Of a DNA stretch of 64,000 nucleotides, positions 3,112 through 55,125 are shown in pieces. The first letter of the stretch is position 1, and every line of letters starts with the position of its first letter. The stretch comes from Gammaproteobacteria bacterium 53_120_T64. Lineage in GTDB: Bacteria; Pseudomonadota; Gammaproteobacteria; Pseudomonadales; Porticoccaceae. The position numbers and the translations under genes were made by a program. Where the stretch lies: the NCBI GenBank assembly GCA_002162815.1, contig MAAT01000005.1, positions 1-64,000 on the forward strand, given 5' to 3'. The notes under the pieces are model-generated. The model did not search any database, was not told the DNA's origin, and worked only from the letters and a program-made list of their open reading frames with translations.

Positions 3112-5265
3112 ATGGATGTTACCTCAATAATAGATAGTCTTAACCCTGCCCAACGCGAGGCGGTGACCAGTGCCGACCCTTATCAGTTGGTGTTGGCTGG
3201 TGCCGGTAGTGGCAAAACCCGGGTGCTGGTGCACCGTATTGCCTGGCTGATGCAGGTTGAGGGTTTGTCGCCCTATCAAATACTCTCGGTGACCTTTACC
3301 AATAAAGCGGCCCGCGAAATGCGCGAGCGCATTTCCGACCTGATTGGTTTTGCGCCCCAGGGGATGTGGGTCGGCACCTTTCACGGCCTCGCCCATCGGT
3401 TGCTGAAAATGCATTGGCGCGATGCGGATTTGCCCGAGGGTTTTCAAATACTCGACGCCGACGACCAGCTGCGTGTCATCAAGCGGGTGTATACCGCCTT
3501 GAATATGGACACGGAGAAGTGGCCGCCCCGTCAGGCGCAGTGGTATATCAACGAGCAGAAAGACGAGGGCCTGCGTGCCGCCCATATTCAGCAAAGCCCC
3601 GATCCTTTTACAGTGGCGATGCTGCAAATTTATCGCGGCTATGAAGAGGCTTGCCAGCGCGGTGGCCTGGTGGATTTTGGCGAGTTGTTATTGCGCGCCC
3701 ACGAACTGTGGCTGCATAAGCCGGCGCTACTGGCCCACTATCAAGACCGTTTTCAGCATATTTTGGTGGATGAGTTTCAAGACACCAACGGCATTCAATA
3801 CGCTTGGCTGCGGGTGCTGGCGGGTAATACGTTGGGCATGACGGCGGTCGGTGACGACGACCAGTCTATCTATGGCTGGCGCGGTGCCAAGATTGAAAAC
3901 ATTCAAAATTACACCCACGATTTTGAGGGTGTTACTACGGTGCGGCTGGAACAAAATTACCGCTCCACCGCGACCATATTAAAAGCTGCCAACGGGGTGA
4001 TCTCCCAAAACGCCAATCGCCTGGGTAAAACCCTGTGGACGGATGCTGAAGGCGGTGAGAAGTTGTCGTTGTACGCCGGCTTCAACGAGCAGGACGAGGC
4101 GCGCTTTATTGGCGAGCGCATTCAGGACTGGGTCGCGAAAGGCAATATGCGCAGCGCTGTGGCGATACTCTATCGCTCCAATGCCCAGTCGCGCATTCTT
4201 GAAGAAGCCCTGCTGCGCTTACAGATTCCCTATCGTATTTACGGTGGCCATCGCTTTTACGAGCGGCTCGAAATCAAGAATGCCCTGGCCTATTTGCGCC
4301 TATTAATGAACCGCCACGACGATGCCGCCTTTGAGCGGGTGATTAATACCCCCACGCGCGGCATTGGCGATAAAACCGTACAGCGTTTGCGTGACACGGC
4401 GCGGGCGGCGCAGCAGTCGATGTGGGCAGCGGCCGAAAGCGAGGTCGAAAATTTACCGGCCCGAGCCAGTAATGCGGTGCGTGGCTTTTTGGCGATGGTT
4501 AGCGAGTTGGCCGAGGACTATCAAAATCTCGGTCTCGATGAATTGACCGACCAAGTACTCGAGGCATCGGGCCTGCTGGAGTTTTATCGCCGCGAGAAAG
4601 GTGAGCGCGGCCAGACCCGGGTCGAAAACCTTGAAGAATTGATCAATGCCTGTCGGGCCTACGACGCGCCCGACCCCGATAGCCCCGCCCTGCCCCAGTT
4701 TATTGATGAGGCGGTACTCGATGCCGGTGAGCGCCAGGCCGAAAGCGATGAGGATGCGATTCAGTTGATGACCCTGCACTCGGCTAAGGGTTTAGAGTTC
4801 CCCCTGGTATTTATGGCCGGTATGGAGGAAAACCTCTTTCCCCATAAAATGTCACTGGAAGAATCCGGTCGTCTCGAAGAGGAGCGCCGCCTGTGTTATG
4901 TCGGCATTACTCGGGCGATGCAAAAACTCTACCTGACTTACGCCGAAACACGGCGGCTCTACGGCCAGGAAAGCTATAACCGGGTGTCGCGCTTTATTCG
5001 CGATATTCCCAGTGATGTACTCGAAGAAGTGCGGCTCTCGGCGAATGTCTCCAAGCCGACCAGCTTTGCGAAAAAAGCCACGCTGAGTGATGAGGGTACG
5101 GGCTCAGGTTTGGCACTCGGCCAGCAGGTGAAACACAAGATATTTGGCGAGGGTGTGATTCTCAGTTTTGAGGGCAACGGCGCCAATGGTCGCGTGCAGG
5201 TTAAGTTTGTCAATGAAGGCACCAAGTGGATGGTGCTGCAATACGCGAAGCTACAGCCTGCATAA
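3112..5265 (+). CDS. uvrD: DNA helicase II (UvrD)
   Basis: This superfamily 1A 3'-5' helicase acts in nucleotide excision repair, mismatch repair and removal of RecA filaments. At 717 residues it matches the usual 720. Motifs appear in order: Walker A AGAGSGKT at residues 29-36, TFTNKAAREM, the Walker B region LVDEFQDTN, GDDDQSIYGWRGA (motif III), TLHSAKGLEFPLVF (motif V) and YVGITRA (motif VI). The C-terminus carries the Tudor-like RNA-polymerase-binding domain (about 665-717, beginning GQQVKHKIFGEG). The N-terminus MDVTSIIDSLNPAQREAV aligns with E. coli UvrD, which supports the ATG at 3112 despite the lack of a ribosome site. It stands alone, divergent from hexR. Confidence 0.95.
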   Translation: MDVTSIIDSLNPAQREAVTSADPYQLVLAGAGSGKTRVLVHRIAWLMQVEGLSPYQILSVTFTNKAAREMRERISDLIGFAPQGMWVGTFHGLAHRLLKMHWRDADLPEGFQILDADDQLRVIKRVYTALNMDTEKWPPRQAQWYINEQKDEGLRAAHIQQSPDPFTVAMLQIYRGYEEACQRGGLVDFGELLLRAHELWLHKPALLAHYQDRFQHILVDEFQDTNGIQYAWLRVLAGNTLGMTAVGDDDQSIYGWRGAKIENIQNYTHDFEGVTTVRLEQNYRSTATILKAANGVISQNANRLGKTLWTDAEGGEKLSLYAGFNEQDEARFIGERIQDWVAKGNMRSAVAILYRSNAQSRILEEALLRLQIPYRIYGGHRFYERLEIKNALAYLRLLMNRHDDAAFERVINTPTRGIGDKTVQRLRDTARAAQQSMWAAAESEVENLPARASNAVRGFLAMVSELAEDYQNLGLDELTDQVLEASGLLEFYRREKGERGQTRVENLEELINACRAYDAPDPDSPALPQFIDEAVLDAGERQAESDEDAIQLMTLHSAKGLEFPLVFMAGMEENLFPHKMSLEESGRLEEERRLCYVGITRAMQKLYLTYAETRRLYGQESYNRVSRFIRDIPSDVLEEVRLSANVSKPTSFAKKATLSDEGTGSGLALGQQVKHKIFGEGVILSFEGNGANGRVQVKFVNEGTKWMVLQYAKLQPA

Positions 5266-5406
5266 GAGACCTTCGCACGAGAGCCATTTTGCTCCCATGC
5301 TGCGTTAAAAAAGTGCTCAATCGGTCATTTACAAATTGTAAACTCCCTCTCTGCGCGCTTTTTTGCCTTGCCTGAAAGCAAAATCATCTCTCGTGCAAAG
5401 GCCTCT
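5266..5406. repeat. 141-bp imperfect palindromic element after uvrD
   Basis: The element begins at the base after the uvrD stop codon. Its ends are inverted copies: GAGACCTTCGCACGAGAG (5266-5283) pairs with CTCTCGTGCAAAGGCCTC (5388-5405), and TTTTGCT pairs with AGCAAAA further in. The centre is TTTACAA-A-TTGTAAA, with the axis at 5335, and the arms stay complementary with mismatches throughout. The layout is that of a non-autonomous palindromic repeat (MITE- or ERIC-like). It resembles dispersed intergenic repeats in related genomes. As RNA it would form one long hairpin and may protect or end the uvrD transcript. Confidence 0.6.
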
Positions 5407-5445
5407 ACAAGTAGCATAATTAATAAAAAGTAAGGTGATGAAAAA

Positions 5446-6567
5446 ATGATAAAAAAGTTAGCAATCAGTGCCCTTGTGCTTCTATTGGCCGCCTGCGGTG
5501 AACAGCAAGCGGCGACCTCCTCGGAGGGAGCTGCTGCTGTTGCAGAGCAGAAAACCTTTAAGTGGAAGCTGGTCACTACCTGGCCGAAAAATTATCCGGG
5601 TCTCGGCATGGCACCGGAGAATTTCGCCACTCTCATCGACCGCATGAGTCAGGGTCGCCTGAAAATAAAGGTCTATGGTGCCGGGCAAATGGTGCCTGCG
5701 CTGGAAGTTTTTGATGCGGTCTCTCAGGGCACGGCGGAGATGGGCCACGGTGCGGCGTATTACTGGAAGGGCAAAACCCCCGCGTCAGTATTTTTCACCT
5801 CGGTGCCCTTTGGTCTCAATGCCCAGGAAATGAACAGCTGGTTGTATCACGGTGGCGGCATGGAGTTGTGGCGTGAAACCTATGCACCCTTCAATCTCGT
5901 GCCCTTTGCCGCTGGCAACTCCGGGGTGCAAATGGCCGGTTGGTTTAATCGGGAAATCAACAGCCTTGAAGATCTGCAGGGTTTGAAAATGCGTATACCG
6001 GGCATTGGTGGTGAAGTGATTACCCGCGCCGGTGGCGAAGCGGTGACGATTCCCGGCGGTGAGCTCTACACCGCCATGCAAACCGGGGTGATTGATGCCA
6101 CCGAGTGGGTTGGCCCCTATAACGACCTGGCCTTTGGTTTTCATCAGGTGGCGAAGTACTACTATTACCCGGGTTGGCACGAGACGGGTTCGACCCTGGA
6201 GCTGGTTATCAACAAAGATGCCTGGGCGTCTCTGCCCGGTGATTTGCAGGCCATGGTGGAAGCGGCGGCGCGCACGGTGAATCAAGATATGCTCGATGAA
6301 TACACCGCCCGTAACAATGCGGCACTGGTGCAGTTGGTCGACGAACACGGCGTGCAATTGCGACGCTTGCCGGATGATGTGCTGGTGAAGCTGAAGACCC
6401 TCACCGGGGAGGTGCTCGATGAACTCGTTGCCAATGATCCATTGGCGAAGCGGGTGCGTGATTCACTGCAGGTCTTTCAGGCACAGGTGATGGCGTACCA
6501 CGAAATTTCGGAGGAGGCCTACTACCGAGCCCGCCGTTTGGAGACGGAGTCCACAGTGCAGCCATAA
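5446..6567 (+). CDS. TRAP-type substrate-binding lipoprotein (DctP family)
   Basis: The 373-residue protein starts with a lipoprotein signal (residues 1-17, lipobox LLAAC with Cys17), so it should be anchored in the periplasm. The rest is a DctP/TakP-type solute receptor: FKWKLVTTWPKNYPG, a long hinge region, then LKMRIPGIGGEV (Arg in the carboxylate-binding position), and TGVIDATEWVGPYND. These receptors capture organic acids (2-oxo acids, mannitol or similar) for DctQM permeases. No DctQ or DctM gene is present in this window, so it is an orphan receptor here. It has its own ribosome site (AAGGTGATG before ATG). The ligand cannot be named. Confidence 0.8.
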   Translation: MIKKLAISALVLLLAACGEQQAATSSEGAAAVAEQKTFKWKLVTTWPKNYPGLGMAPENFATLIDRMSQGRLKIKVYGAGQMVPALEVFDAVSQGTAEMGHGAAYYWKGKTPASVFFTSVPFGLNAQEMNSWLYHGGGMELWRETYAPFNLVPFAAGNSGVQMAGWFNREINSLEDLQGLKMRIPGIGGEVITRAGGEAVTIPGGELYTAMQTGVIDATEWVGPYNDLAFGFHQVAKYYYYPGWHETGSTLELVINKDAWASLPGDLQAMVEAAARTVNQDMLDEYTARNNAALVQLVDEHGVQLRRLPDDVLVKLKTLTGEVLDELVANDPLAKRVRDSLQVFQAQVMAYHEISEEAYYRARRLETESTVQP

Positions 6568-8621: not shown

Positions 8622-10502
8622 ATGTCAATTTTGCCCGTTATTGTTGGATACGGTGGTGTTAATCCCGCCGGAAGAAGTTCGTTTGATCAGGGCTATCGTC
8701 GCATGGTGCTGGAAAACCTAGCCCAGGCCGAGCAGGATAAGACCATTGTCGGTCTGGCCTGCATGATGAAGCTGGTGAGCTGGAATGGCTCGGCCTATGA
8801 GGATGGTGACGGCAAGGCCCTCAGTATCCGCGAAATATCGACCCGCTATACTGCCGAGGTTTGCGATAAAACCTTGATTCGGCGCATTGAATCGAATCAC
8901 TATGACCCCGACGCGGCCTTTTGCCAAAAGACCCTGGTGACGGATTCGAGCGCAGAGGGCATGACATTTCGCACCAAGAAAAAAAGCCTACCCGATGACA
9001 TCCCCGAAAGCTGGGAGGTCATCTATGGTGAAAAGGGCGCGGTGGAAGTGACGATTAAGGGTCAGCAGGAGTGGCGTATTCCCACCACACGCAATATGTC
9101 CGTTAAAGCGGCGGGCCAGTTGCCAACAGGTTTCGAGCCGGGTGAACTCTACAATTCACGTTTTCAACCACGGGGCTTACAGCTGGCCTTGTTTGGTGCC
9201 ACCGATGCGGTGCGCTCAATCGGTATCGATTGGCAGACGATTTGCGATGCGGTGCAGCCCGACGAAACCGGCGTTTACGCTTCTAGCGCTATGGGTCAGC
9301 TGGCCGATGAAGGCCTAGGTGGTTTGATGGCCTCTCGTCAGCTGGGTGGTCGACCGACCTCTAAGCAGGTGCCGATGGGTCTGACTAGTATGCCCGCCGA
9401 TTTCGTCAATGCTTATGTATTGGGCAACCTTGGCCACACCGAATCGGTAGCCGGTGCCTGCGCTAGCTTTTTATACAACTTGCGCGCGGCGACACACGAT
9501 ATTCGCAGCGGCGCACGCCGTGTGGCTGTGGTGGGTTGCGGTGAGGCGCCCATTCTGCCGGAAATCATGGAGGGTTATACCAATATGACCGCGCTGGCCA
9601 CGGAGGCAGAAATGCAGGCCTTGGGTGATGGTGATCCCCGCCGCTACAGTCGCCCCTTTGGCGAGAATGCCGGTTTTGTGATGGGTGAGTCGGCGCAATA
9701 CATTGTGTTGATGGACGACGCACTGGCGATCGAACTGGGTGCCGATATTTTTGGCGCCGTGCCCGATGTCCACGTTGATGCCGATGGCATTAAAAAGTCA
9801 ATCTCCGGGCCGGGGCCGGGCAACTATATTAGCTTTGGTAAGGCGGTCGCCACCGCGCGCAATATCCTCGGTGAGGAGGCCGTGCGCGAGCGTAGTTTCG
9901 TGATGGCCCATGGCTCGAGTACACCGCAGAACCGAGTCACCGAGTCGATTATTTTTGAACGTATCGCCGAGGCCTTTGGTATTAGTGACTGGCCGGTGTG
10001 CGCGGTCAAGGCCTTTGTTGGGCATTCCTTGGCACCGGCCAGTGGTGACCAGATCATGGCGGCGATTGGCGCGATGCGCCACGGCTTACTTCCCGGTATT
10101 AAAACCCTGGATGCCGTGGCCGATGATGTTTATCAGCAGCGCTTACATTTTCCGCTGCAAGACTTGCCCGCTGAAAAAGATATCGCCTTTATTAACGCCA
10201 AGGGTTTTGGCGGCAATAATGCGACGGGGGTGCTGTTTTCCGGTCGCGTTGTGGAGCAAATGCTCGCCAAGCGTTATAGCGGCGAGTGGCGTGACTATTG
10301 CCAGCGTCGCGAGGCAACCCGCCAGCAGGCGGCGGATTATGAAGTGCGTGCCGATCGTGGTGAGCTTGCACCGATCTATCGTTTTGGTGAGGGAGTGATT
10401 GCCGATGAGGAGGTGTTAATCTCCGATCAAGCCATCAGCCTGCCGGGTTACGGTAAACCTGTACCACTGAAGGGAAAAAACCCCTACGACGATATGCTGT
10501 AG
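8622..10502 (+). CDS. fabY: beta-ketoacyl-ACP synthase FabY
   Basis: The 626-residue protein matches FabY, the initiating condensing enzyme of fatty acid synthesis in Pseudomonas, which joins acetyl-CoA and malonyl-ACP in place of FabH. The start MSILPVIVGYGGVNPAGRSS and the segment AAGQLPTGFEPGELYNSRF are typical of it. Catalytic residues of the KAS fold are present: nucleophile Cys280 in GACASF, His in MAHGSSTPQN and His in VGHSLAPASGDQ, followed by the glycine-rich NAKGFGGNNATG. It is single, divergent from the AraC-type regulator, and ends at a strong hairpin. The long family-specific N-terminal region before the Cys argues against FabB/FabF. Confidence 0.88.
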   Translation: MSILPVIVGYGGVNPAGRSSFDQGYRRMVLENLAQAEQDKTIVGLACMMKLVSWNGSAYEDGDGKALSIREISTRYTAEVCDKTLIRRIESNHYDPDAAFCQKTLVTDSSAEGMTFRTKKKSLPDDIPESWEVIYGEKGAVEVTIKGQQEWRIPTTRNMSVKAAGQLPTGFEPGELYNSRFQPRGLQLALFGATDAVRSIGIDWQTICDAVQPDETGVYASSAMGQLADEGLGGLMASRQLGGRPTSKQVPMGLTSMPADFVNAYVLGNLGHTESVAGACASFLYNLRAATHDIRSGARRVAVVGCGEAPILPEIMEGYTNMTALATEAEMQALGDGDPRRYSRPFGENAGFVMGESAQYIVLMDDALAIELGADIFGAVPDVHVDADGIKKSISGPGPGNYISFGKAVATARNILGEEAVRERSFVMAHGSSTPQNRVTESIIFERIAEAFGISDWPVCAVKAFVGHSLAPASGDQIMAAIGAMRHGLLPGIKTLDAVADDVYQQRLHFPLQDLPAEKDIAFINAKGFGGNNATGVLFSGRVVEQMLAKRYSGEWRDYCQRREATRQQAADYEVRADRGELAPIYRFGEGVIADEEVLISDQAISLPGYGKPVPLKGKNPYDDML

Positions 10503-10510
10503 CGAATCAC

Positions 10511-10542
10511 CCTTAACCTGCATCATTAGATGCAGGTTAAGG
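10511..10542. terminator. bidirectional hairpin between fabY and gamma-carbonic anhydrase gene
   Basis: CCTTAACCTGCAT (10511-10523) pairs perfectly with ATGCAGGTTAAGG (10530-10542) around a six-base loop. It lies between convergent genes. On the + strand it is followed by a T-rich stretch (TTGTCTTATTTTGTT). Confidence 0.75.
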
Positions 10543-10557
10543 CGTTGTCTTATTTTG

Positions 10558-11112
10558 TTAGTCGTTTTCGGCGAGGTACTGATTCTTCAGCTTTACGTAG
10601 TTGCCGGCGGTATAGGGGAAGTAATCAATTTCACTGGGTGTCAGTGCGCGGGCCTGTTTACAGGGGCTGCCGAAATAGAGGTGGCCACTTTTCAGGGTTT
10701 TACCCGGTGGCACTAGTGTGCCCGCGCCGATAATGACGTTATCTTCCACCACGACACCGTCCATAACGGTGGAGCCAATACCCACCAAAATGCAATTGCC
10801 CAGTGTGCAGCCATGAAGGGTGACATTGTGGCCGACGGTGACATCGTTGCCGATAGTGGTCGGCCAGCCGCCGGGGTTGAAGTCACTGGCGTGGGTAATA
10901 TGAACCACGGTGCCGTCCTGGATACTGCTGCGCTGGCCGATGCGAATCGAATGCATGTCGCCGCGAATCACCGCTCCGGGCCAGACCGAGCTATCGTCAC
11001 CGAGTTCGACATCGCCGATTACCGTTGCCGCTGCGTCGACAAAGCAGTGCTTGCCAAGTTTCGGGGTGTGGCCGTTAAAGCTGCGGATAGCGGGTATATT
11101 GTCGCGTGACAT
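10558..11112 (-). CDS. gamma-carbonic-anhydrase-like hexapeptide protein (YrdA/PaaY type)
   Basis: A 184-residue left-handed beta-helix protein built of hexapeptide repeats (IGDVEL, VIRGDM, TIGNDVTVGHNV, ILVGIGSTVMDG). The three metal-binding His of the gamma-carbonic anhydrase family are visible: the one in RGDMHSI and the two in VGHNVTLHGC. Some members hydrate CO2, while others (CaiE, PaaY) act on thioesters or have no known activity, so the function is only inferred. It is divergent from the YheV-like gene and convergent with fabY. Confidence 0.8.
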   Translation of the reverse strand: MSRDNIPAIRSFNGHTPKLGKHCFVDAAATVIGDVELGDDSSVWPGAVIRGDMHSIRIGQRSSIQDGTVVHITHASDFNPGGWPTTIGNDVTVGHNVTLHGCTLGNCILVGIGSTVMDGVVVEDNVIIGAGTLVPPGKTLKSGHLYFGSPCKQARALTPSEIDYFPYTAGNYVKLKNQYLAEND

Positions 11113-11185
11113 GGTGAGATCCTAGAAGGTGGTTTGAGCTGTTATTATAGCGGGCTTTATGATTGGCTTTGAATGGGAGTGCGCT

Positions 11186-11419
11186 ATGGCTGATGTAATT
11201 AAGCGCTTTGTTGCTGGGGCGGTCTGTCCGCGCTGTGGTGAGATGGACAAGTTGGTGATCTATCGGCAGGACGAGCGCGATTATCGCGAATGTGTCAGTT
11301 GTGACTTTGCCGAGGAAATGCACTTTGGCCAACCCGCAGCGGAACTTGAAACCCGCGCTAACCGGGATTTAGGCAGGCGGGCGATTAAGTTTGTCGATGC
11401 CGCAGATAAAAATAAATAG
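11186..11419 (+). CDS. YheV-like zinc-ribbon protein
   Basis: The 77-residue protein has a single zinc ribbon made of CPRCG (near residue 14) and CVSCDF (near residue 37), as in the YheV family of putative metal-binding proteins of unknown function. The ATG at 11186 is chosen over an in-frame upstream codon at 11159 because GGGAG sits about seven bases before it and the family begins at this point. E. coli yheV lies next to prlC; prlC is not present here. Confidence 0.75.
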   Translation: MADVIKRFVAGAVCPRCGEMDKLVIYRQDERDYRECVSCDFAEEMHFGQPAAELETRANRDLGRRAIKFVDAADKNK

Positions 11420-11426
11420 GGCTATA

Positions 11427-12092
11427 TCAGTGGAGATTGGGGACGTTACTGCTGCCCTGCCCCAGTGATAGGTTGACTGCCAGGGTGTCGGTAAGGCAGG
11501 GCCAGTGGCTGACTTCAATCCCCCAGGCAATTTCTCGACTGGCGTTTTGGTCGAGCGCGCCGCTGTCGAGTCGTAGATGGTCGCGCTCCAATTGCTCCGC
11601 TAAATCTTGGGCAATTAAGTCGAGGTGGTTGGCTTCGGGTTCGCCGATTAGCTGGTGAATGATCAGGTTGGAGCGGGTCATATCCATTGGGATTAAGGGC
11701 TCGTGACATTGCATCACATAGTGGTCATTGACTTCTTCAATGACCCGGTGGGCAATATAGGCTTGGGCCATGAGTGTTGTCAGGCCGTTGTGTTGCGCGG
11801 GGGGGGAGACCGGCGTATCAAAGACGTCGGTGCAGGCGTTGACCACAGCCTCTGTGTGTTGGCTGCAATTGGCATTGCTGCCAATCATGCTCAGCACGTC
11901 GACAAATTGCGGTACATGCTCGGTATAGCGCACCACGAAATCAAGTAGTGCGGTAACAGCATTGTTGAGAGGCATTTGAATGGCGTGGTGTAGCGAGGGG
12001 GCTTTGCGGGATAGTTGCGCAGCGAGCTGCCCGCTCTCCTCCTCTAGCAGCTTGGCTTGGGTAATATGGTGGCGAAGACTGGTGGTGTCCAT
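11427..12092 (-). CDS. conserved-looking hypothetical protein (221 aa)
   Basis: I do not recognise this gene. The protein is soluble, mostly alpha-helical, and has no signal peptide or membrane segment. It is acidic and contains several His (SLRHHITQ, HYVMQCHEPL, HLDLIAQ, RDHLRL) and four Cys, with no clear CXXC pair. Its length and codon use match its neighbours, so it is probably a real chromosomal gene. It is convergent with the YheV-like gene (7 bases apart) and divergent from the oxidase cluster. A role with the oxidase would be a guess. Confidence 0.6.
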   Translation of the reverse strand: MDTTSLRHHITQAKLLEEESGQLAAQLSRKAPSLHHAIQMPLNNAVTALLDFVVRYTEHVPQFVDVLSMIGSNANCSQHTEAVVNACTDVFDTPVSPPAQHNGLTTLMAQAYIAHRVIEEVNDHYVMQCHEPLIPMDMTRSNLIIHQLIGEPEANHLDLIAQDLAEQLERDHLRLDSGALDQNASREIAWGIEVSHWPCLTDTLAVNLSLGQGSSNVPNLH

Positions 12093-12192
12093 GATTGAAA
12101 TCTAGTCAATAACAACAAAAAAGCAAACTAGACTATGCTGTAGCTCTGTGACTATCAAGAATAAATACAACACGCTTGTGTCGCAATTCCTT

Positions 12193-12218
12193 AGGCACTT
12201 GACTGGTGTCAAGTGCCT
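12193..12218. promoter_or_regulatory. perfect hairpin upstream of the oxidase operon
   Basis: AGGCACTTGA (12193-12202) and TCAAGTGCCT (12209-12218) form a perfect 10-bp stem with a six-base loop. No T-tract follows on either strand, so it does not look like an intrinsic terminator. It lies about 70 bases upstream of the candidate -10 and could be a protein-binding site. The rest of 12093-12443 holds no gene that I can see. Confidence 0.35.
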
Positions 12219-12262
12219 GGCTCACGGGTCTAGGTTTTAGTGGATGAATAGCTGTATCGGCG

Positions 12263-12292
12263 GTGACCTTTTCGCGGGGCTTCTGATACAAT
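12263..12292 (+). promoter_or_regulatory. candidate promoter of the coxB operon
   Basis: GTGACC at 12263-12268 and TACAAT at 12287-12292 are separated by 18 bases. This is a reasonable sigma-70-type match. It would give a 5' leader of about 240 bases before coxB, containing an 18-codon leader ORF. Confidence 0.4.
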
Positions 12293-12443
12293 GCGCGCCG
12301 CGCTGCATCCACGCTTATAGTTTTGTCAACTGTTCGAAACTGAGGCAGTTCAAGAATAAGTGTTAGTCAGCGCTGAAAGAAGTGACAAAAAGTCGCAGGT
12401 GCTCCCGCAATAAATAGCAAATGTGGGGCATGGAGGAGTTCAG

Positions 12444-12500
12444 ATGTCAGTGTTTGCAGGCCGTTCGAGGTCTGGAGTGCTGGTTTTCTTGTATTTCTGA
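12444..12500 (+). CDS. candidate 18-codon leader peptide upstream of coxB
   Basis: ATG at 12444 follows the strong ribosome site GGAGGAG (12432-12438) by five bases and opens an 18-codon frame ending in TGA at 12498-12500, 36 bases before coxB. The product has a basic middle (GRSRSG) and a hydrophobic end (VLVFLYF). The ribosome site is better than the one of coxB itself, so the frame is probably translated. It may control coxB translation or attenuation, or may merely be a short membrane peptide. No terminator hairpin is obvious between it and coxB. Confidence 0.4.
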   Translation: MSVFAGRSRSGVLVFLYF

Positions 12501-12535
12501 ACAAGATCAATATAGCAAATCGGAGAGAATAGGTA

Positions 12536-13696
12536 ATGGTATCTAGAGTAAAGCAGCTTGTCGTGTATGCGCTAAGCCCACTCTTGCTGTTGTCTTTTGT
12601 CGGGCAGCTAGCCCGTGCAGAAGATGCGCACGCAAGTGGCTGGAGTTTGCTGAATATGACAGAGGGTGTCACCGGTGTCAGTCACGATATTTATGACTTG
12701 CACATGACTGTCGTTTGGATCTGTGTATGGATCTCGGTGGTGGTTTACGGCGTGATGTTTTACAGCATGTTTGCCCATCGCAAATCGAGGGGTGCGAAGG
12801 CATCAAACTTCCATGAGAGCACGGTAGTCGAGCTGTTATGGACCATCGTTCCCGTACTGATTTTGATCTGGGTAGCCTTCCCCTCGACGCGAGTCTTGAT
12901 CGATCTTTACGATACCAGTGAAGCCGATATCGATATCAAGGTAACCGGTTACCAGTGGAAGTGGCAGTACGAATACCTCGGTGAAGGTGTCGAGTTTATG
13001 AGTGAGCTGACGACTTCAGAGGCCGCCATTTATAACTTGGAGCCGAAAACAGAGTACTACCTGTCAGAGGTCAATGAGCCCTTGGTGTTGCCGATCGGTA
13101 AAAAGGTTCGCTTCCTGTTGACCGCTAAGGACGTTATTCACGCCTGGTGGGTCCCCGAGCTAGGTGTGAAGCGCGATGCCGTACCCGGTTTTATCAATGA
13201 AACCTGGGCCAAAATTGATGAGCCCGGTATTTATCGCGGTTTCTGTGCCGAGCTTTGCGGCAAGGGCCACGCCTTTATGCCGATCGTTGTCAATGCTGTT
13301 TCCGAAGAGGAATATGCAGTTTGGCTGGCGGCTAAAAAAGAAGCTGCTGCCGCGCAACGCGAGATGGCCAAGCAAAGCTTCACGTTTGAGCAGTTAATGG
13401 CCAAGGGTGAAGAGAGTTATAACCGCTCATGTGCAGGTTGTCATGCCGCCAACGGCGAAGGCATTCCCGGCGCATTCCCAGCCTTGAAAGGCAGTGCTGT
13501 TGCGCTAGGTCCAGTGGCCAAGCACCTTGATGTTGTCGTCAACGGCACCGCTGGAACCGCAATGCAAGCCTTCGGTGGGCAATTGTCAGAGGTTGATCTG
13601 GCCGCGATTATTACTTATGAGCGCAATGCTTGGGGTAACGATGTCGGTGACATGGTTCAGCCGATCGACGTACTTAAATTCAAACAAGGCCAATAG
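12536..13696 (+). CDS. coxB: cytochrome c oxidase subunit II with C-terminal cytochrome c domain
   Basis: The subunit takes electrons from cytochrome c. It starts with a signal sequence (about residues 1-28), followed by two membrane helices (about 55-80 and 98-120). The CuA domain shows HAWWVPELGVKRDAVPGF and the ligand loop CAELCGKGHAFM. A C-terminal c-type heme domain follows, with CAGCH as the heme-attachment motif (about residue 300) and a Met in TAMQAF as probable axial ligand. The 386-residue length fits fused CoxB proteins of Pseudomonas. It is first in a run coxB-coxA-ctaG-coxC. The ATG at 12536 has GGAGAG eight bases upstream. Confidence 0.93.
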   Translation: MVSRVKQLVVYALSPLLLLSFVGQLARAEDAHASGWSLLNMTEGVTGVSHDIYDLHMTVVWICVWISVVVYGVMFYSMFAHRKSRGAKASNFHESTVVELLWTIVPVLILIWVAFPSTRVLIDLYDTSEADIDIKVTGYQWKWQYEYLGEGVEFMSELTTSEAAIYNLEPKTEYYLSEVNEPLVLPIGKKVRFLLTAKDVIHAWWVPELGVKRDAVPGFINETWAKIDEPGIYRGFCAELCGKGHAFMPIVVNAVSEEEYAVWLAAKKEAAAAQREMAKQSFTFEQLMAKGEESYNRSCAGCHAANGEGIPGAFPALKGSAVALGPVAKHLDVVVNGTAGTAMQAFGGQLSEVDLAAIITYERNAWGNDVGDMVQPIDVLKFKQGQ

Positions 13697-50781: not shown

Positions 50782-52275
50782 ATGGGCGTTGCTGAGAGTG
50801 GAAATATTGGTGCTGCGGTTGCCGGTGGGAAAAGAAACCCGAAGGTAATTATTGTTGGTACTGGCTTGTCGGGTGTTTGCATGGGCATTCGCTTGATGGA
50901 AGCCGGCTTTACCGACGTGACTTTATACGAGAAAGCCGGTGGTTTGGGTGGTACCTGGTACTCCAACTTTTATCCGGGTCTGCGCTGTGATGTGCCGTCT
51001 TATTACTACCAATATAGCTTTTCTCCGAGCGCCAGCTGGAGCCACCGTTTTTGTGGTGGCCCAGAAATTCAACAGTATTACGAAAATACTGCGAAAAAAT
51101 ACAATGTCTTCGAGCGTATTAAATTTAACAGTGAGGTAACGCACTCCGAGTATCGTGGCGGCAAATGGCACGTTGACCTGGAGAATGGCGATACCGACGA
51201 AGCGGATATCTTGATTGCCTGCTGTGGCATTTTGGTACGTCCGAAGTACCCCGAAATTGCTGGCATGGATGATTTTGAAGGTAAAATCCTGCACACCGCG
51301 CGCTGGGAAAAAGATATCGACCTGACGGGTAAAAGTGTTGCCGTTATCGGCAATGGTTCTACCGGCATTCAAATGATCAAGCCGCTGACCGATATTTGCA
51401 AAAAGGTTTACTCCTTCCAGCGCACGCCGCAGTGGATCGTACCGGTACCGAACCGCAAGTACTCCAAGCTCAACGAGAAGATGCTAACGACCTTCCCCGT
51501 TATTTCTAAAGTGTTCCATCATTCCATTAGCTACTTTATGGAAACGATTATGGGCACCGGCGTTATTAAAGACGGTTGGGCGAGAAAGATAGTCGGTAAG
51601 GCCTGTCAGTGGAACTTGAACAATGTCACGGACCCCAAATTGCGCAAGGCCTTGACCCCTGACTATGTTGCCATGTGTAAGCGTTTGGTGATGTCGTCGG
51701 AGTTTTACCCCGCCATTCAGCGCCCCAATGCGGAGCTGATCTCCGAGCACATTGAGTGCTTTGAAGCGAAGGGTATTCGCACTAAAGATGGTGAGCTACA
51801 TGAAGTTGACGTGGTGGCACTGGCTACCGGTTACCATGCCGGCGAGCACATGATGCCGATGACCATGAGCATTGAAAATGGCCCCACCCTTGAAGAGCAG
51901 TGGAAAGATGGCATCTATGGCTACCGCACCGTTGCCATGCCCGACTTCCCCAACTTCTTCATGGTAATGGGCCCTAACAGCCCCGTCGGTAACTTCTCTC
52001 TAGCGGCGATTGCCGAAGTGCAGTCCGGCTACATCATGAACTTCGTCGAGAAGTGGGCCAATCGTGAATTTGACAAGGTCAGCCCCAAGCGTGCGGCTAC
52101 CGATCGTTTTGTTCAGGATATGAAGGACAATATGGAAGGCACCGTTTGGTTAACCGGTTGTGATAGCTGGTATCTGGATAAGAACGGCGTTCCCGTTTCC
52201 TGGCCCTGGACGGCGGGCAAGTTCCGTAACGACCTGAAGGTGCCCGACTACAGTGAGTACGAGATGGAGCGTTAA
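50782..52275 (+). CDS. flavin-containing monooxygenase, Baeyer-Villiger type
   Basis: The 497-residue enzyme has an FAD-binding GxGxxG motif (VGTGLSGVCMG, about residue 30), the flavin loop GGLGGTWYSNFYPGLRCDVP, the Baeyer-Villiger fingerprint FxGxxxHxxxW as FEGKILHTARW, and an NADPH-binding GNGSTG. Such enzymes insert oxygen next to a ketone or oxidise heteroatoms; ketone or steroid substrates are possible. It has a consensus promoter, a candidate TetR-type operator and its own terminator. The thiolase pair downstream suggests a degradation pathway, but that is inference. Confidence 0.88.
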   Translation: MGVAESGNIGAAVAGGKRNPKVIIVGTGLSGVCMGIRLMEAGFTDVTLYEKAGGLGGTWYSNFYPGLRCDVPSYYYQYSFSPSASWSHRFCGGPEIQQYYENTAKKYNVFERIKFNSEVTHSEYRGGKWHVDLENGDTDEADILIACCGILVRPKYPEIAGMDDFEGKILHTARWEKDIDLTGKSVAVIGNGSTGIQMIKPLTDICKKVYSFQRTPQWIVPVPNRKYSKLNEKMLTTFPVISKVFHHSISYFMETIMGTGVIKDGWARKIVGKACQWNLNNVTDPKLRKALTPDYVAMCKRLVMSSEFYPAIQRPNAELISEHIECFEAKGIRTKDGELHEVDVVALATGYHAGEHMMPMTMSIENGPTLEEQWKDGIYGYRTVAMPDFPNFFMVMGPNSPVGNFSLAAIAEVQSGYIMNFVEKWANREFDKVSPKRAATDRFVQDMKDNMEGTVWLTGCDSWYLDKNGVPVSWPWTAGKFRNDLKVPDYSEYEMER

Positions 52276-52297
52276 GCGCTGCTAATCGTCACTGCGA

Positions 52298-52329
52298 CCC
52301 GGGGGTGTAAAAACCCCCGGGTTTTTTTT
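52298..52329 (+). terminator. intrinsic terminator after the monooxygenase gene
   Basis: CCCGGGGGT (52298-52306) pairs with ACCCCCGGG (52313-52321) around GTAAAA and is followed by eight T. It separates the monooxygenase from the acyl-CoA genes. Confidence 0.93.
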
Positions 52330-52449
52330 GCCTAAAAACTGACTCTATGGTCGGCTTTGCTGGGTGTTGAGGCCCGAGAGCCTTGGTGTTTCGAGCGGCA
52401 GGTGGGCTATGATGACGCAACAAAAGCCATTAAAAATAATCACGAGGGG

Positions 52450-53841
52450 ATGACGGTGTCTGGAATTATAAGCTACGGTGCTTACGTGCCGTATTATCGA
52501 TTAACGCGCAAAGCCATTGGCGGGGGCAAGGGCGAGCGGGCCATTGCCAGTCACGACGAAGATTCGGTATCGATGTCGGTTGAAGCGGGGCGTGGCGCAT
52601 TAGCCGCAAGCCCGGCGATTGACACCTTGGTGTTCGCGACCAACAGCGCGCCCTATGCGGAAAAACTCAATGCGGCGGCGATTTGCTCGGCTCTGGATTT
52701 ACCCGCACAGGTGAACACGATTGAGTTGGCCAACAATACCCGCATGGGCTTGGCGGCATTATTACTCGGCACCGACCTCGGTAAAGCCGGGCGCACGTCA
52801 CTGGTGTGTGCCGGCGATATCGTCATGGGTGCGCCGGGTGGTGCACGTGAGCGCGATAGCGGCGACGCCGCAGTGGCCTTTGTCACCGGACCGGAAGAAG
52901 ATGCCATTGCCCGGGTATTGGGTCGGGCTTCGACAACCTCAGAGATTCTCGATGTCTGGCGCTTGCCGACCGATCGCTTTGCGCGGCAGTGGGAAGAGCG
53001 CTTCGGTATAGAAGTACTGGGCCCGATCAGTCTCGATACCGCCCAACGTGCATTGGCGGATGCCGATGTGGCGCCGGATGCACTTGCAGCGGTCATTCTG
53101 GATGCCACCAATAGCCGCGATGTTGTCGGCATTCCACGGGCGCTGGGCCTCAAGCCCGAGCAGGTGGCCGATATGCTGGCGGGCTCTGTGGGCCGCAGTG
53201 GTGTTGCCCATGCGGGTTTGGTGCTGGCACGGACTCTCGATCAGGCGCAGCCCGGTGATAAAATTCTCGTGCTGTCGACGGCCGATGGTTGCGATGCGGT
53301 GGTGCTGGAAGTGAGCGATAAGATTGCCGAAGGACGACCCGCGCGCAGTGTTGATCACTGGTTGGCCTCAAGCAATAATGAGATTGCCTATAACACCTAT
53401 TTAAAATGGCGTGAAATTCTGCCCTTTGAAGCGCCGCGCCGTCCCGATCCCGACCGTCCGGCCGCGCCGATTATGAAACGCAATGAACGCTGGAAGTACG
53501 CCTTTTGCGGTAGTCGCTGCGGCAAATGTGGTCAGGGCCATTTGCCACCACAGCGGGTGTGCATGAAGTGTCGCTCAATCGACGAAATGGTCGAAGAACG
53601 CTTTGCCGATGCAGACTGCAAAATCACCACTTACACACTCGATCATCTGGCTTACAGCCTGCAGCCGCCGGTTGTTTCCACCGTGGTAGATTTTGACTGC
53701 GGCGGCCGTTTGGCCTGCGAATTGACCGATGTTGATCCGGCAGATGTCGCGATTGGCGATAAGCTGGAAATGACTTTTCGGCGTTTCTACACGGGTCAGG
53801 GTGTCCACAACTATTTCTGGAAAGCACGGCCACAACGCTAG
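52450..53841 (+). CDS. HMG-CoA-synthase-like protein fused to a DUF35 zinc-ribbon/OB domain
   Basis: The first 330 residues have the thiolase-like fold of HMG-CoA synthases (IISYGAYVPYYRL at the start, VCAGDIVMGAPGGARERDSG, SGVAHAGLVLA), but the position of the catalytic Cys (ACYGG in true enzymes) reads LANNTRMG, so it is probably not a working synthase. The C-terminal 125 residues are DUF35: a zinc ribbon with CGKCG and CMKC, then an OB fold. The thiolase gene follows by 10 bases. A scaffold or acyl-CoA-binding role for the thiolase is inferred. Start: ATG 52450, or GTG 52456, which is better spaced from GAGGGG (52444-52449). Confidence 0.78.
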   Translation: MTVSGIISYGAYVPYYRLTRKAIGGGKGERAIASHDEDSVSMSVEAGRGALAASPAIDTLVFATNSAPYAEKLNAAAICSALDLPAQVNTIELANNTRMGLAALLLGTDLGKAGRTSLVCAGDIVMGAPGGARERDSGDAAVAFVTGPEEDAIARVLGRASTTSEILDVWRLPTDRFARQWEERFGIEVLGPISLDTAQRALADADVAPDALAAVILDATNSRDVVGIPRALGLKPEQVADMLAGSVGRSGVAHAGLVLARTLDQAQPGDKILVLSTADGCDAVVLEVSDKIAEGRPARSVDHWLASSNNEIAYNTYLKWREILPFEAPRRPDPDRPAAPIMKRNERWKYAFCGSRCGKCGQGHLPPQRVCMKCRSIDEMVEERFADADCKITTYTLDHLAYSLQPPVVSTVVDFDCGGRLACELTDVDPADVAIGDKLEMTFRRFYTGQGVHNYFWKARPQR

Positions 53842-53851
53842 GGGGTGATGT

Positions 53852-55036
53852 ATGGCAAGTAACGGAATTAAAGATCAAGTTGCGATCGTCGGCATGGGCT
53901 GCACGCCCTTTGGCGAGCACTGGGGCAGAGATGCCGCCGATATGTTAATTGACGCGGCCAGCGATGCCTATCAATCGGCGGGTGTTGATCCCGCTGATGT
54001 CGATGCCTATTGGCTTGGCACTTTTGCTAGCGGTATCTCTGGCATGGTGTTTTCAGAAGCCTTGAAAACACCCTATAAGCCGGTGACGCGGCTGGAGAAT
54101 ATGTGTGCCACGGGCAGCGAGGCGATTCGCAATGCCGCCTACGCTGTGGCGAGTGGTGCCTACGATCTGGTGATGGCCGTGGGTGTTGAGAAACTTAAAG
54201 ACGGTGGTTATTCCGGCCTGGTCGTACCGGGCCCGGATGGTGATGGCACCGAGTCGAGCATGACGGCACCGGCGATGTTTTCACTGCTGGCACCGGCCTA
54301 CTGTGAAAAATACGGTGTCGGAGAAGGTGAGTTGAAAGATGTGCTATCGCACATTGCCTGGAAAAACCACGTGGCTGGGGCAAAAAACCCCAAAGCGCAG
54401 TTCCGCAAAGAGGTTTCTCTGGAGAAGATCTGCAACTCGCCGCGTATAGCAGGAATGTTTGGCGTATTTGATTGCTCCGGTGTTTCCGACGGCTCTGCCG
54501 CCGCGATTTTATGCCGCGCTGAAGATGCCTATAAATACACCGATAAGCCGATTTTCCTCAAAGCGCTGTCCGTAGCGGCGGGGCCGAATGAAGGCTTTAT
54601 CAGTGAGGAGTACGACTTCACCACCTTTCAGGAAGTGGTGGTCTCGGCTCAGGATGCCTATAAACAAGCGGGCATTACCAATCCCCGTGAAGAAATTTCC
54701 ATGGCGGAAGTCCACGATTGCTTTACGGCGACGGAGCTAGTGCTAATGGAAGATATGGGCTTTTCCGAGCGCGGCGAGGGTTGGAAGGATGTCATGGAAG
54801 GCCGTTTTGATGGTGATGGCGCTCAGCCGATTAATCCCGATGGTGGTTTAAAAAGTTTTGGTCATCCCATTGGTGCCAGTGGTTTACGAATGATGTATGA
54901 GATGTGGCTGCAGCTACGTGGCGAAGCCGGTGAGCGTCAAATTAAAGATCCGAAGCTGGGTTTGACTCACAACCTCGGTGGACAACCGGGCCGCTGTGTC
55001 AGCTTTGTATCTATCGTTGGCCGCGAGCTGGGTTAA
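53852..55036 (+). CDS. SCP2/acetyl-CoA acetyltransferase-type thiolase
   Basis: The 394-residue thiolase has the catalytic Cys in LENMCATGSEAIRNAA (about residue 91), the HDCFTATELVL segment of SCP2-type thiolases, and the second Cys/His region SFGHPIGASGLRMMYE. It should cleave or form beta-ketoacyl-CoA bonds. It directly follows the HMGS-like/DUF35 fusion gene, and thiolases of this class often need a DUF35 partner. The Cys distinguishes it from Ltp2-type aldolases. The substrate is unknown. Steroid side chains or branched acids are possible. Confidence 0.88.
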   Translation: MASNGIKDQVAIVGMGCTPFGEHWGRDAADMLIDAASDAYQSAGVDPADVDAYWLGTFASGISGMVFSEALKTPYKPVTRLENMCATGSEAIRNAAYAVASGAYDLVMAVGVEKLKDGGYSGLVVPGPDGDGTESSMTAPAMFSLLAPAYCEKYGVGEGELKDVLSHIAWKNHVAGAKNPKAQFRKEVSLEKICNSPRIAGMFGVFDCSGVSDGSAAAILCRAEDAYKYTDKPIFLKALSVAAGPNEGFISEEYDFTTFQEVVVSAQDAYKQAGITNPREEISMAEVHDCFTATELVLMEDMGFSERGEGWKDVMEGRFDGDGAQPINPDGGLKSFGHPIGASGLRMMYEMWLQLRGEAGERQIKDPKLGLTHNLGGQPGRCVSFVSIVGRELG

Positions 55037-55060
55037 TGTGAAATTTGCCGGCGTTTAGTC

Positions 55061-55125
55061 GGCAATAAAAAACCCGGCCTGCCTTTTGTGTGAATAAAAG
55101 GCAGTCGCCGGGTTTTTTTATTGCC
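55061..55125. terminator. long bidirectional terminator between thiolase and rho
   Basis: The outer arms 55061-55078 (GGCAATAAAAAACCCGGC) and 55107-55125 pair with one bulge. The inner arms CTGCCTTTT and AAAAGGCAG pair around an eight-base loop. T-runs occur on both strands, serving both convergent genes. Confidence 0.9.

Follow-up and report, generated by a model that had tools for sequence, protein, structure and literature searches.

We analysed a 64,000-nucleotide stretch of DNA (the window) from Gammaproteobacteria bacterium 53_120_T64, contig C72 in a draft genome of 2.95 Mb, in which two adjacent genes on the + strand encode a hydroxymethylglutaryl-coenzyme A synthase-like (HMGS-like) domain fused to a DUF35 domain (52456..53841) and an SCP2-type thiolase (53852..55036). 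We consider it probable that this pair encodes a scaffolded thiolase, with the fusion protein as non-catalytic partner and the thiolase as catalyst, most likely of 3-oxoacyl-coenzyme A (CoA) cleavage. The evidence comes from the disappearance of the synthase catalytic residues throughout the fusion family, the conservation of those of the thiolase, and the close association of the two genes. The synthase label that such proteins carry has already puzzled one pathway study, that of the edc estradiol operon (PMC7793797).

Domain organization of the fusion protein

Both open reading frames (ORFs) lie where the sequence-only reading of this DNA had placed them, apart from the start of the fusion gene. 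The ATG at 52450 proposed there is in frame, but 52456-53841 (461 aa, from GTG) is the better call because the GTG start is common to the near-identical relatives L028-L030 and is preceded by a good ribosome-binding site; the ORF is 461 aa in L028 and L030, and 466 aa in L029. With residue 1 set at base 52447, the protein has an HMGS-like domain of the thiolase superfamily at residues 4-325 (52456..53421), a conserved proline-rich linker at residues 326-344 (53422..53478), and a DUF35 domain, made of a zinc ribbon and an OB fold, at residues 345-464 (53479..53838). The last of these scores 41.8 bits against OB_ChsH2_C/DUF35 (PF01796; cut-off 27.1), and its zinc ribbon 19.8 bits against PF12172 (cut-off 23.2), with all four cysteines (Cys358, 361, 372 and 375) present. 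Of 67 fusions aligned, 58 keep the same four. The other nine (L062, L064, L065, L067, L069, L072, L079, L083 and L097) have lost the Cys4 ribbon and kept the rest of DUF35; all are titled Acidimicrobiia, Acidimicrobiales or Acidimicrobiaceae, and other records of this group retain the ribbon.

The structure predicted for the fusion as a single chain is confident throughout (predicted local distance difference test, pLDDT, 93.6; predicted template modelling score, pTM, 0.94), and the model has the HMGS fold, aligning by VIA-align to 6ESQ_J with Z 44.0 and a root-mean-square deviation of 1.8 Å over 324 aligned residues. Further matches of the model are 6ET9_I (Z 43.9), 9SKH_A (42.1), PhlA 5MG5_A (40.6) and 9VBO_B (38.5). 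None of the 50 listed VIA-align entries is described as a fusion of this kind.

Loss of the HMGS catalytic residues

As the sequence-only reading had claimed, the fusion contains the string LANNTRMG and the catalytic Cys is gone. Alignment with chain I of 6ESQ puts Thr, Asn and Asp of the window protein in the columns of Cys114, Glu82 and His235 of archaeal HMG-CoA synthase, with the Thr98 codon at 52738..52740 in place of the nucleophile. In the same alignment none of 91 fusions has the expected Cys, Glu or His at any of the three sites (0/91 for each). These 91 comprise the window, 80 named loci and 10 loci of other genomes; L006 is the window itself, and L016 (an incomplete sequence) and L108-L118 were left out. 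The scan that supplied the 80 loci used patterns outside the active site and ranked loci by their likeness to the window, so that they represent the best 80 of at least 581. Five annotated plasmid relatives likewise have none of the three residues at its site (0/5). A Cys occupies the place of the His in one plasmid relative, L150, and in one of the 91 fusions.

As a control within the same class we took the best 30 HMGS-model loci in Gammaproteobacteria, ten of which are fusions; the 20 others all keep Cys, Glu and His. Their open frames span 369-767 aa, and their 'HMGS' label rests on the model and the triad, the model search having matched 264 of 369 genomes with no score over the cut-off and with many probably FabH-like proteins. 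Because the residues are absent from all aligned fusions, the five on plasmids included, and present in all controls, the loss of the triad is, as judged from these alignments, family-wide among the relatives examined and not a quirk of this genome. A mevalonate-pathway HMG-CoA synthase that lost one residue by error, or that was misannotated, is suggested by the NCBIfam HMGS models, which are the top matches for the first domain of the fusion. Yet the scores are below the respective cut-offs (155.9 bits of 244 for NF003274, E 1.4e-45; 102.4 of 353.35 for TIGR00748), all three residues are gone in the 91 and the five plasmid fusions, and the frame is unbroken in the window, with 91-96% identity across six genomes of the genus, leaving this explanation with a negligible chance of being right.

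The residue at the former nucleophile varies freely across the fusions (V, S, T, P, A, L, Q, I, R, G or M). We also looked for a different catalytic Cys, which the earlier reading had named as something that would refute it, and found no conserved Cys column in the HMGS-like domain. An alternative nucleophile was rejected on this basis, the columns with at least ten cysteines holding only 24, 13, 10 and 10 of 67 rows. In L007 a Cys lies two residues before the site and in L035 directly before it; neither is common among the 91 rows.

A Cys-free activity newly gained by the HMGS-like domain, which would make the fusion an enzyme acting before or after the thiolase, could account for the polar residues that are strictly conserved in 67 fusions (Asp37-Glu38-Asp39, Glu183 and Arg185), for the nearly invariant Arg99 next to the lost Cys, and for the retention of the domain in every fusion examined. 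We regard such an activity as improbable: the Asp-Glu-Asp stretch may be structural because it is also found in true HMGS, the former nucleophile position is free to vary with no Cys column in its stead, and the domain is the fastest-changing part of the pair. Over 47 fusion-thiolase pairs (the overlap of 67 aligned fusions and 50 aligned thiolases), mean pairwise identity is 0.44 for the HMGS-like domain, lower than in DUF35 (0.55), the linker (0.59) and the thiolase (0.65).

An intact thiolase tied to the fusion

The thiolase gene begins ten bases downstream of the fusion stop, which its ribosome-binding site, as judged by eye, overlaps. Its product belongs to the NF004810/PRK06157 family (608.2 bits against NF004810; cut-off 403) and is, as first proposed, an SCP2-type thiolase with its Cys in place: Cys85 (54104-54106), the HDCF motif His288-Asp-Cys290-Phe (54713-54724) and His338 of the GHP motif (54863-54865) are all present. 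In an alignment of 81 thiolase rows, where rows not covering these residues are incomplete, Cys85 is found in 79 of 79 covered rows and His288, Cys290 and His338 in 78 of 78 each. The same four residues are kept in all five plasmid partner thiolases. The predicted structure (pLDDT 92.1) has 4YZO, 6ESQ_A and 7YVY as its closest folds.

The tight gene partnership seen in the window extends to its relatives and goes beyond coincidence. A thiolase relative lies downstream of the fusion on the same strand in all 80 named loci, within 302 bp in 79 of them and at 3.35 kb in L103; the thiolase frame is broken in L054. Among 58 genomes of relatives, 18 have a fusion and the identical 18 have an NF004810 thiolase over the cut-off. 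Thirty of the 32 such thiolases adjoin a fusion, and the other two, both in G371, are on other contigs. A further fusion, on contig C9 of G374, is placed at the contig end and its thiolase is missing there, and that of G398 is in two pieces. Fusion and over-cut-off thiolase co-occur in the same 10 of 369 Gammaproteobacteria (11 of 12 thiolases adjacent) and, in the order to which Rhodococcus jostii belongs, in the same 6 of 101 genomes (8 of 8 adjacent); the first of these samples and that of the relatives both include the window genome. Across the samples the three non-adjacent thiolases are each on a different contig from the fusion, which itself reaches or nearly reaches the end of its contig. 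Genomes without a fusion can carry SCP2-type thiolases that score below the cut-off, as do 10 of the 58 relatives (E 1e-60) and 1 of the 101 (G465, E 1e-100). Copy numbers are lower bounds because few candidates were scored per genome (four in the class search, for example).

Evolutionary distances of the two proteins are strongly correlated over the same 47 pairs (mirror-tree r 0.905, with none of 2000 permutations as high). Taken with the identities above, this would fit an active thiolase accompanied by a partner under relaxed constraint.

The family is widespread. Our scan of species genomes found at least 581 stretches that encode a fusion relative, the best 80 of which are all full-length fusions. 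By record title these best 80 come from Proteobacteria, Acidobacteria, Actinobacteria, Rokubacteria, Chloroflexi and Nitrospinae, and from one species that we take to be clostridial. Database records call them 'OB-fold domain-containing protein', 'hydroxymethylglutaryl-CoA synthase' or '3-oxoacyl-[acyl-carrier-protein] synthase III C-terminal', and these differing names conceal a single family. We found no published HMGS-DUF35 fusion in the open-licence literature searched; the accessible part of a paper on acetone in Desulfotomaculum (PMC8084838) names a DUF35 protein and acetyl-CoA acetyltransferases and no fusion.

Comparison with known DUF35-thiolase complexes

The kinship to the archaeal thiolase/HMGS/DUF35 complex (6ESQ, 6ET9) that the sequence-only reading had seen is borne out, the closest folds of the HMGS-like domain being 6ESQ, 6ET9 and PhlA. 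The two systems have the same three modules, and both the top fold match of the fusion (Z 44.0) and the top sequence match of the thiolase (6ESQ_A) come from the archaeal complex. They differ in that the archaeal HMGS keeps its Cys, Glu and His and supplies mevalonate synthesis, whereas the window protein has none of the three and carries DUF35 on the same chain. Channeling, which PMC12329534 gives for the archaeal 6ESQ complex and which had been proposed for this pair as well, does not carry over, because passing on an intermediate needs a second active site and this is lost in all 91 aligned fusions. We propose a scaffold instead of a channel for the same reason, the HMGS part being dead. 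The Journal of Biological Chemistry paper on Sal (PMC12329534) lists DUF35-thiolase complexes, in several of which channeling is left open.

A bacterial complex of a Cys-less HMGS-like protein, DUF35 and a thiolase is already known in PhlABC, the Friedel-Crafts acylase of Pseudomonas protegens (PpATase; 5M3K, 5MG5; relative 9SKH), whose catalyst also has the thiolase fold. According to PMC6392133, PhlA is without the Cys and the Glu, only residues of PhlC carry out acyl transfer, active enzyme is obtained only when all of phlABC is expressed, and PhlB has an N-terminal tail that lies buried against PhlA and PhlC; by position, this tail corresponds to the linker of the fusion. In our alignment to 6ESQ chain I, PhlA has Gly, Cys and Gln at the Cys, Glu and His sites. 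Unlike the window pair, PhlABC consists of three proteins, with the HMGS-like and DUF35 parts on separate subunits, and performs a CoA-independent C-acylation in antibiotic synthesis, whereas the relatives of the window pair are found in acyl-CoA catabolic settings. The window thiolase is also nearer to the archaeal acetoacetyl-CoA thiolase, the PhlC active site having been compared through PMC6392133. MucABC of Streptococcus macacae (9VBO, 9VBT), a solved complex proposed to acetylate tetramic acids as part of the muc cluster (PMC10161427), similarly combines a thiolase-fold chain with an HMGS-like chain, which has Glu, Cys and Gln at the three sites; its chains are separate. The benzoylsuccinyl-CoA thiolase BbsAB (7PXP), Ltp2-ChsH2 (6OK1) and Sal-Shy (9MYR) resemble the pair in placing a DUF35/OB-fold partner on a catabolic thiolase-fold enzyme; they differ in that the accessible part of PMC12329534 names no HMGS-like part for them, and in that Ltp2 and Sal are aldolases. 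New in the window pair and its relatives are the fusion itself, its wide occurrence and the catabolic settings in which it is found, together with a role for the edc 'HMG-CoA synthase' that synteny makes likely.

We built a midpoint-rooted tree of 45 rows, among them 34 fusions out of the 91, 7 controls out of the 20 and one archaeal reference. All 34 fusions fall into a single group (100/100). With a support of 97/86, this group is joined by PhlA (two rows) and the long-branched MucABC chain and is separated from HMGS, archaeal or other. Alignment, fold and tree together clearly indicate a common ancestry of the HMGS-like domain with PhlA and archaeal HMGS. The tree also suggests a single loss of the triad common to the fusions and the PhlA group, and goes no further than suggesting it because of the midpoint root, the one archaeal reference and the long MucABC branch.

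This placement, with its shared triad loss, speaks for viewing the pair as a C-acyltransferase like PhlABC or MucABC, in which Cys85 would load an acyl group and pass it to a non-CoA carbon acceptor, either in synthesis or in retro-Claisen diketone cleavage; PhlABC is reversible and CoA-free (PMC6392133). We nevertheless find it unlikely. By sequence the thiolase is closer to archaeal 6ESQ_A (2e-61) than to the PhlC-type chains (1.9e-32 to 8.2e-31), HDCF and GHP are kept in all covered rows, and the surroundings of the relatives are those of acyl-CoA catabolism.

Genomic settings of related pairs

A second pair in the same genome (contig C68, L027:865-13112), with a fusion 32% identical to that of the window, is set in an acyl-CoA pathway, its neighbours being four acyl-CoA dehydrogenases, an enoyl-CoA hydratase, an HpcH/HpaI-type lyase and a FAS1-type dehydratase protein. 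In Acididesulfobacillus (L073) the pair occupies the thiolase slot of an operon, the order being TetR regulator, enoyl-CoA hydratase, 3-hydroxyacyl-CoA dehydrogenase, fusion, thiolase and two acyl-CoA ligases. Thirty-one plasmid records carry a fusion, and the five that we opened, hand-picked for their hosts and therefore examples that give no rate, all have an adjoining thiolase over the NF004810 cut-off. Four of these have genes for acyl-CoA dehydrogenases, hydratases or CoA-transferases around them, joined in two cases by ring-hydroxylating dioxygenases, and the fifth (N. pentaromativorans) lies among mostly dehydrogenases and hydrolases with one acyl-CoA dehydrogenase at the edge. Such settings agree with the earlier view of a complex turned to degradation; for the window locus itself, the relatives are what that view draws on.

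One plasmid locus ties the family to estrogen degradation. Plasmid p3 of Novosphingobium sp. ES2-1, a strain that degrades estradiol (PMC12507874), has a cluster of acyl-CoA dehydrogenase, short-chain dehydrogenase/reductase, fusion, thiolase, two hydratases, a hypothetical protein, a lipid-transfer protein, an OB-fold protein and a cytochrome P450. The ES2-1 fusion is 34% identical to that of the window; Leu, Thr and Ser replace the HMGS Cys, Glu and His, and the adjoining thiolase keeps all four catalytic residues. The gene order is close to that published for OpA, the estradiol (E2)-induced edc operon of Novosphingobium (Caenibius) tardaugens, in which, as in the window, an 'HMG-CoA synthase' (EGO55_13555) stands next to a thiolase (EGO55_13550), and whose describers could not place the synthase at any step (PMC7793797). 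Because the syntenic pair in ES2-1 is a triad-less fusion with an NF004810 thiolase, EGO55_13555 is likely the non-catalytic scaffold of EGO55_13550, on the evidence of gene order and with the ES2-1 sequence as stand-in. Such a reading would give the unassigned edc 'synthase' a role as partner of the next-door thiolase, with co-expression implied. Deletion of the whole operon in N. tardaugens already halts degradation at estrone, and the accessible part of the same paper reports no single mutants of EGO55_13555 or EGO55_13550 (PMC7793797).

The ES2-1 estrogen cluster (L149:11995-19323) holds two DUF35-thiolase pairs, one formed by the fusion and its thiolase and the other by the lipid-transfer protein and the separate OB-fold protein; the second pair is likely an aldolase. 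This touches on the notion that the window pair is a retro-aldolase cutting a hydroxyacyl-CoA side chain, as Ltp2-ChsH2 or Sal-Shy would, both being DUF35-thiolase-fold pairs that appear among our fold-search matches (6OK1 and 9MYR). Sal has a YDCY motif where, we assume, thiolases have HDCF. The Cys within YDCY is required by Sal (PMC12329534), whereas HDCF, Cys85 and His338 are all kept here, and the lipid-transfer and OB-fold pair in the same cluster is the likelier aldolase. We judge a retro-aldolase very improbable.

A scaffolded thiolase as the proposed function

Under the scaffolded-thiolase explanation, Cys85 would attack a 3-oxoacyl-CoA, activated by His338 and with Cys290 of HDCF as acid/base, the roles that these residues have in the SCP2-thiolase route. 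Cleavage would release a shortened acyl-CoA together with acetyl-CoA or a different short acyl-CoA. As an obligate partner, the fusion protein would use its DUF35 part to dock on the thiolase, in the manner of other DUF35-thiolase complexes; its HMGS-like part, without Cys, Glu and His, would be structural and probably form a wall lining the CoA or the substrate. Carrying the HMGS-like part and DUF35 on one chain would leave two subunits where PhlABC and the archaeal complex have three, and in the relatives the pair would fill the thiolysis slot of catabolic operons, once within an estrogen-degradation cluster. This would be a case of an isoprenoid-synthesis enzyme turned into a fixed scaffold for degradation, with a loss of the triad in common with the PhlABC group.

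More speculatively, and with a probability that we rate as rather low, the emptied HMGS pocket might have been put to a new use and, with DUF35, enlarge the space above the thiolase site so that the bulky half of ring-derived 3-oxoacyl-CoAs, such as steroid-like or alicyclic ones, fits there. If so, the pairs would constitute a distinct bacterial class of large-substrate thiolases, present in many phyla, in which a dead synthase sets specificity.

Several observations weigh against a scaffolded degradative thiolase. The window pair stands alone, with no beta-oxidation genes beside it. The tree neighbours of the HMGS-like domain are acyltransferases and not catabolic thiolases, and the NCBI name of the thiolase is acetyl-CoA acetyltransferase, the cleavage direction being our own suggestion. 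Both the mirror-tree correlation and the adjacency can come from plain co-inheritance or shared descent. The zinc ribbon is degenerate in nine of 67 fusions, and zinc is therefore not essential everywhere.

Neighbouring features of the window locus

A flavin monooxygenase gene (50782..52275, + strand), identified by models and with motifs GGTWYSNFYPGLRCD and FEGKILHTARW that we take to be of the Baeyer-Villiger type, lies upstream of the pair as a separate transcription unit and is probably outside the system. It adjoins the pair in the window and in L028-L030. The gap between monooxygenase and fusion contains an intrinsic terminator (52296..52323, + strand) with an 11-bp stem and a T run; a strong hairpin with a T run is found at this place in all four genomes examined (z -4.2, -3.8, -3.1 and -4.2), and the stem letters in L028-L030 differ from those of the window. 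The terminator claim rests on this conserved hairpin because our scan as a whole gave fewer terminators than shuffled sequence (4 versus a mean of 6.0). The monooxygenase was rejected as a part of the system on account of the terminator and because its ORF cluster occurs in only 3 of 80 loci (L028-L030), some flanks being short. Neighbourhood clusters of GC-rich loci are rich in antisense ORFs, and our use of them was limited to the monooxygenase, the rho-like gene and some genes confirmed with Pfam.

Downstream, the pair is followed by a convergent ORF that is presumably rho-like. Between it and the thiolase, at 55060-55120, an inverted repeat that has T runs to either side looks by eye like a shared terminator; the repeat is missing from the output of the promoter and terminator scan. 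Elsewhere in the family, one deltaproteobacterial contig (L095) holds, within 10 kb, two divergent fusion-thiolase pairs, at 3283-5941 and 9995-12710.

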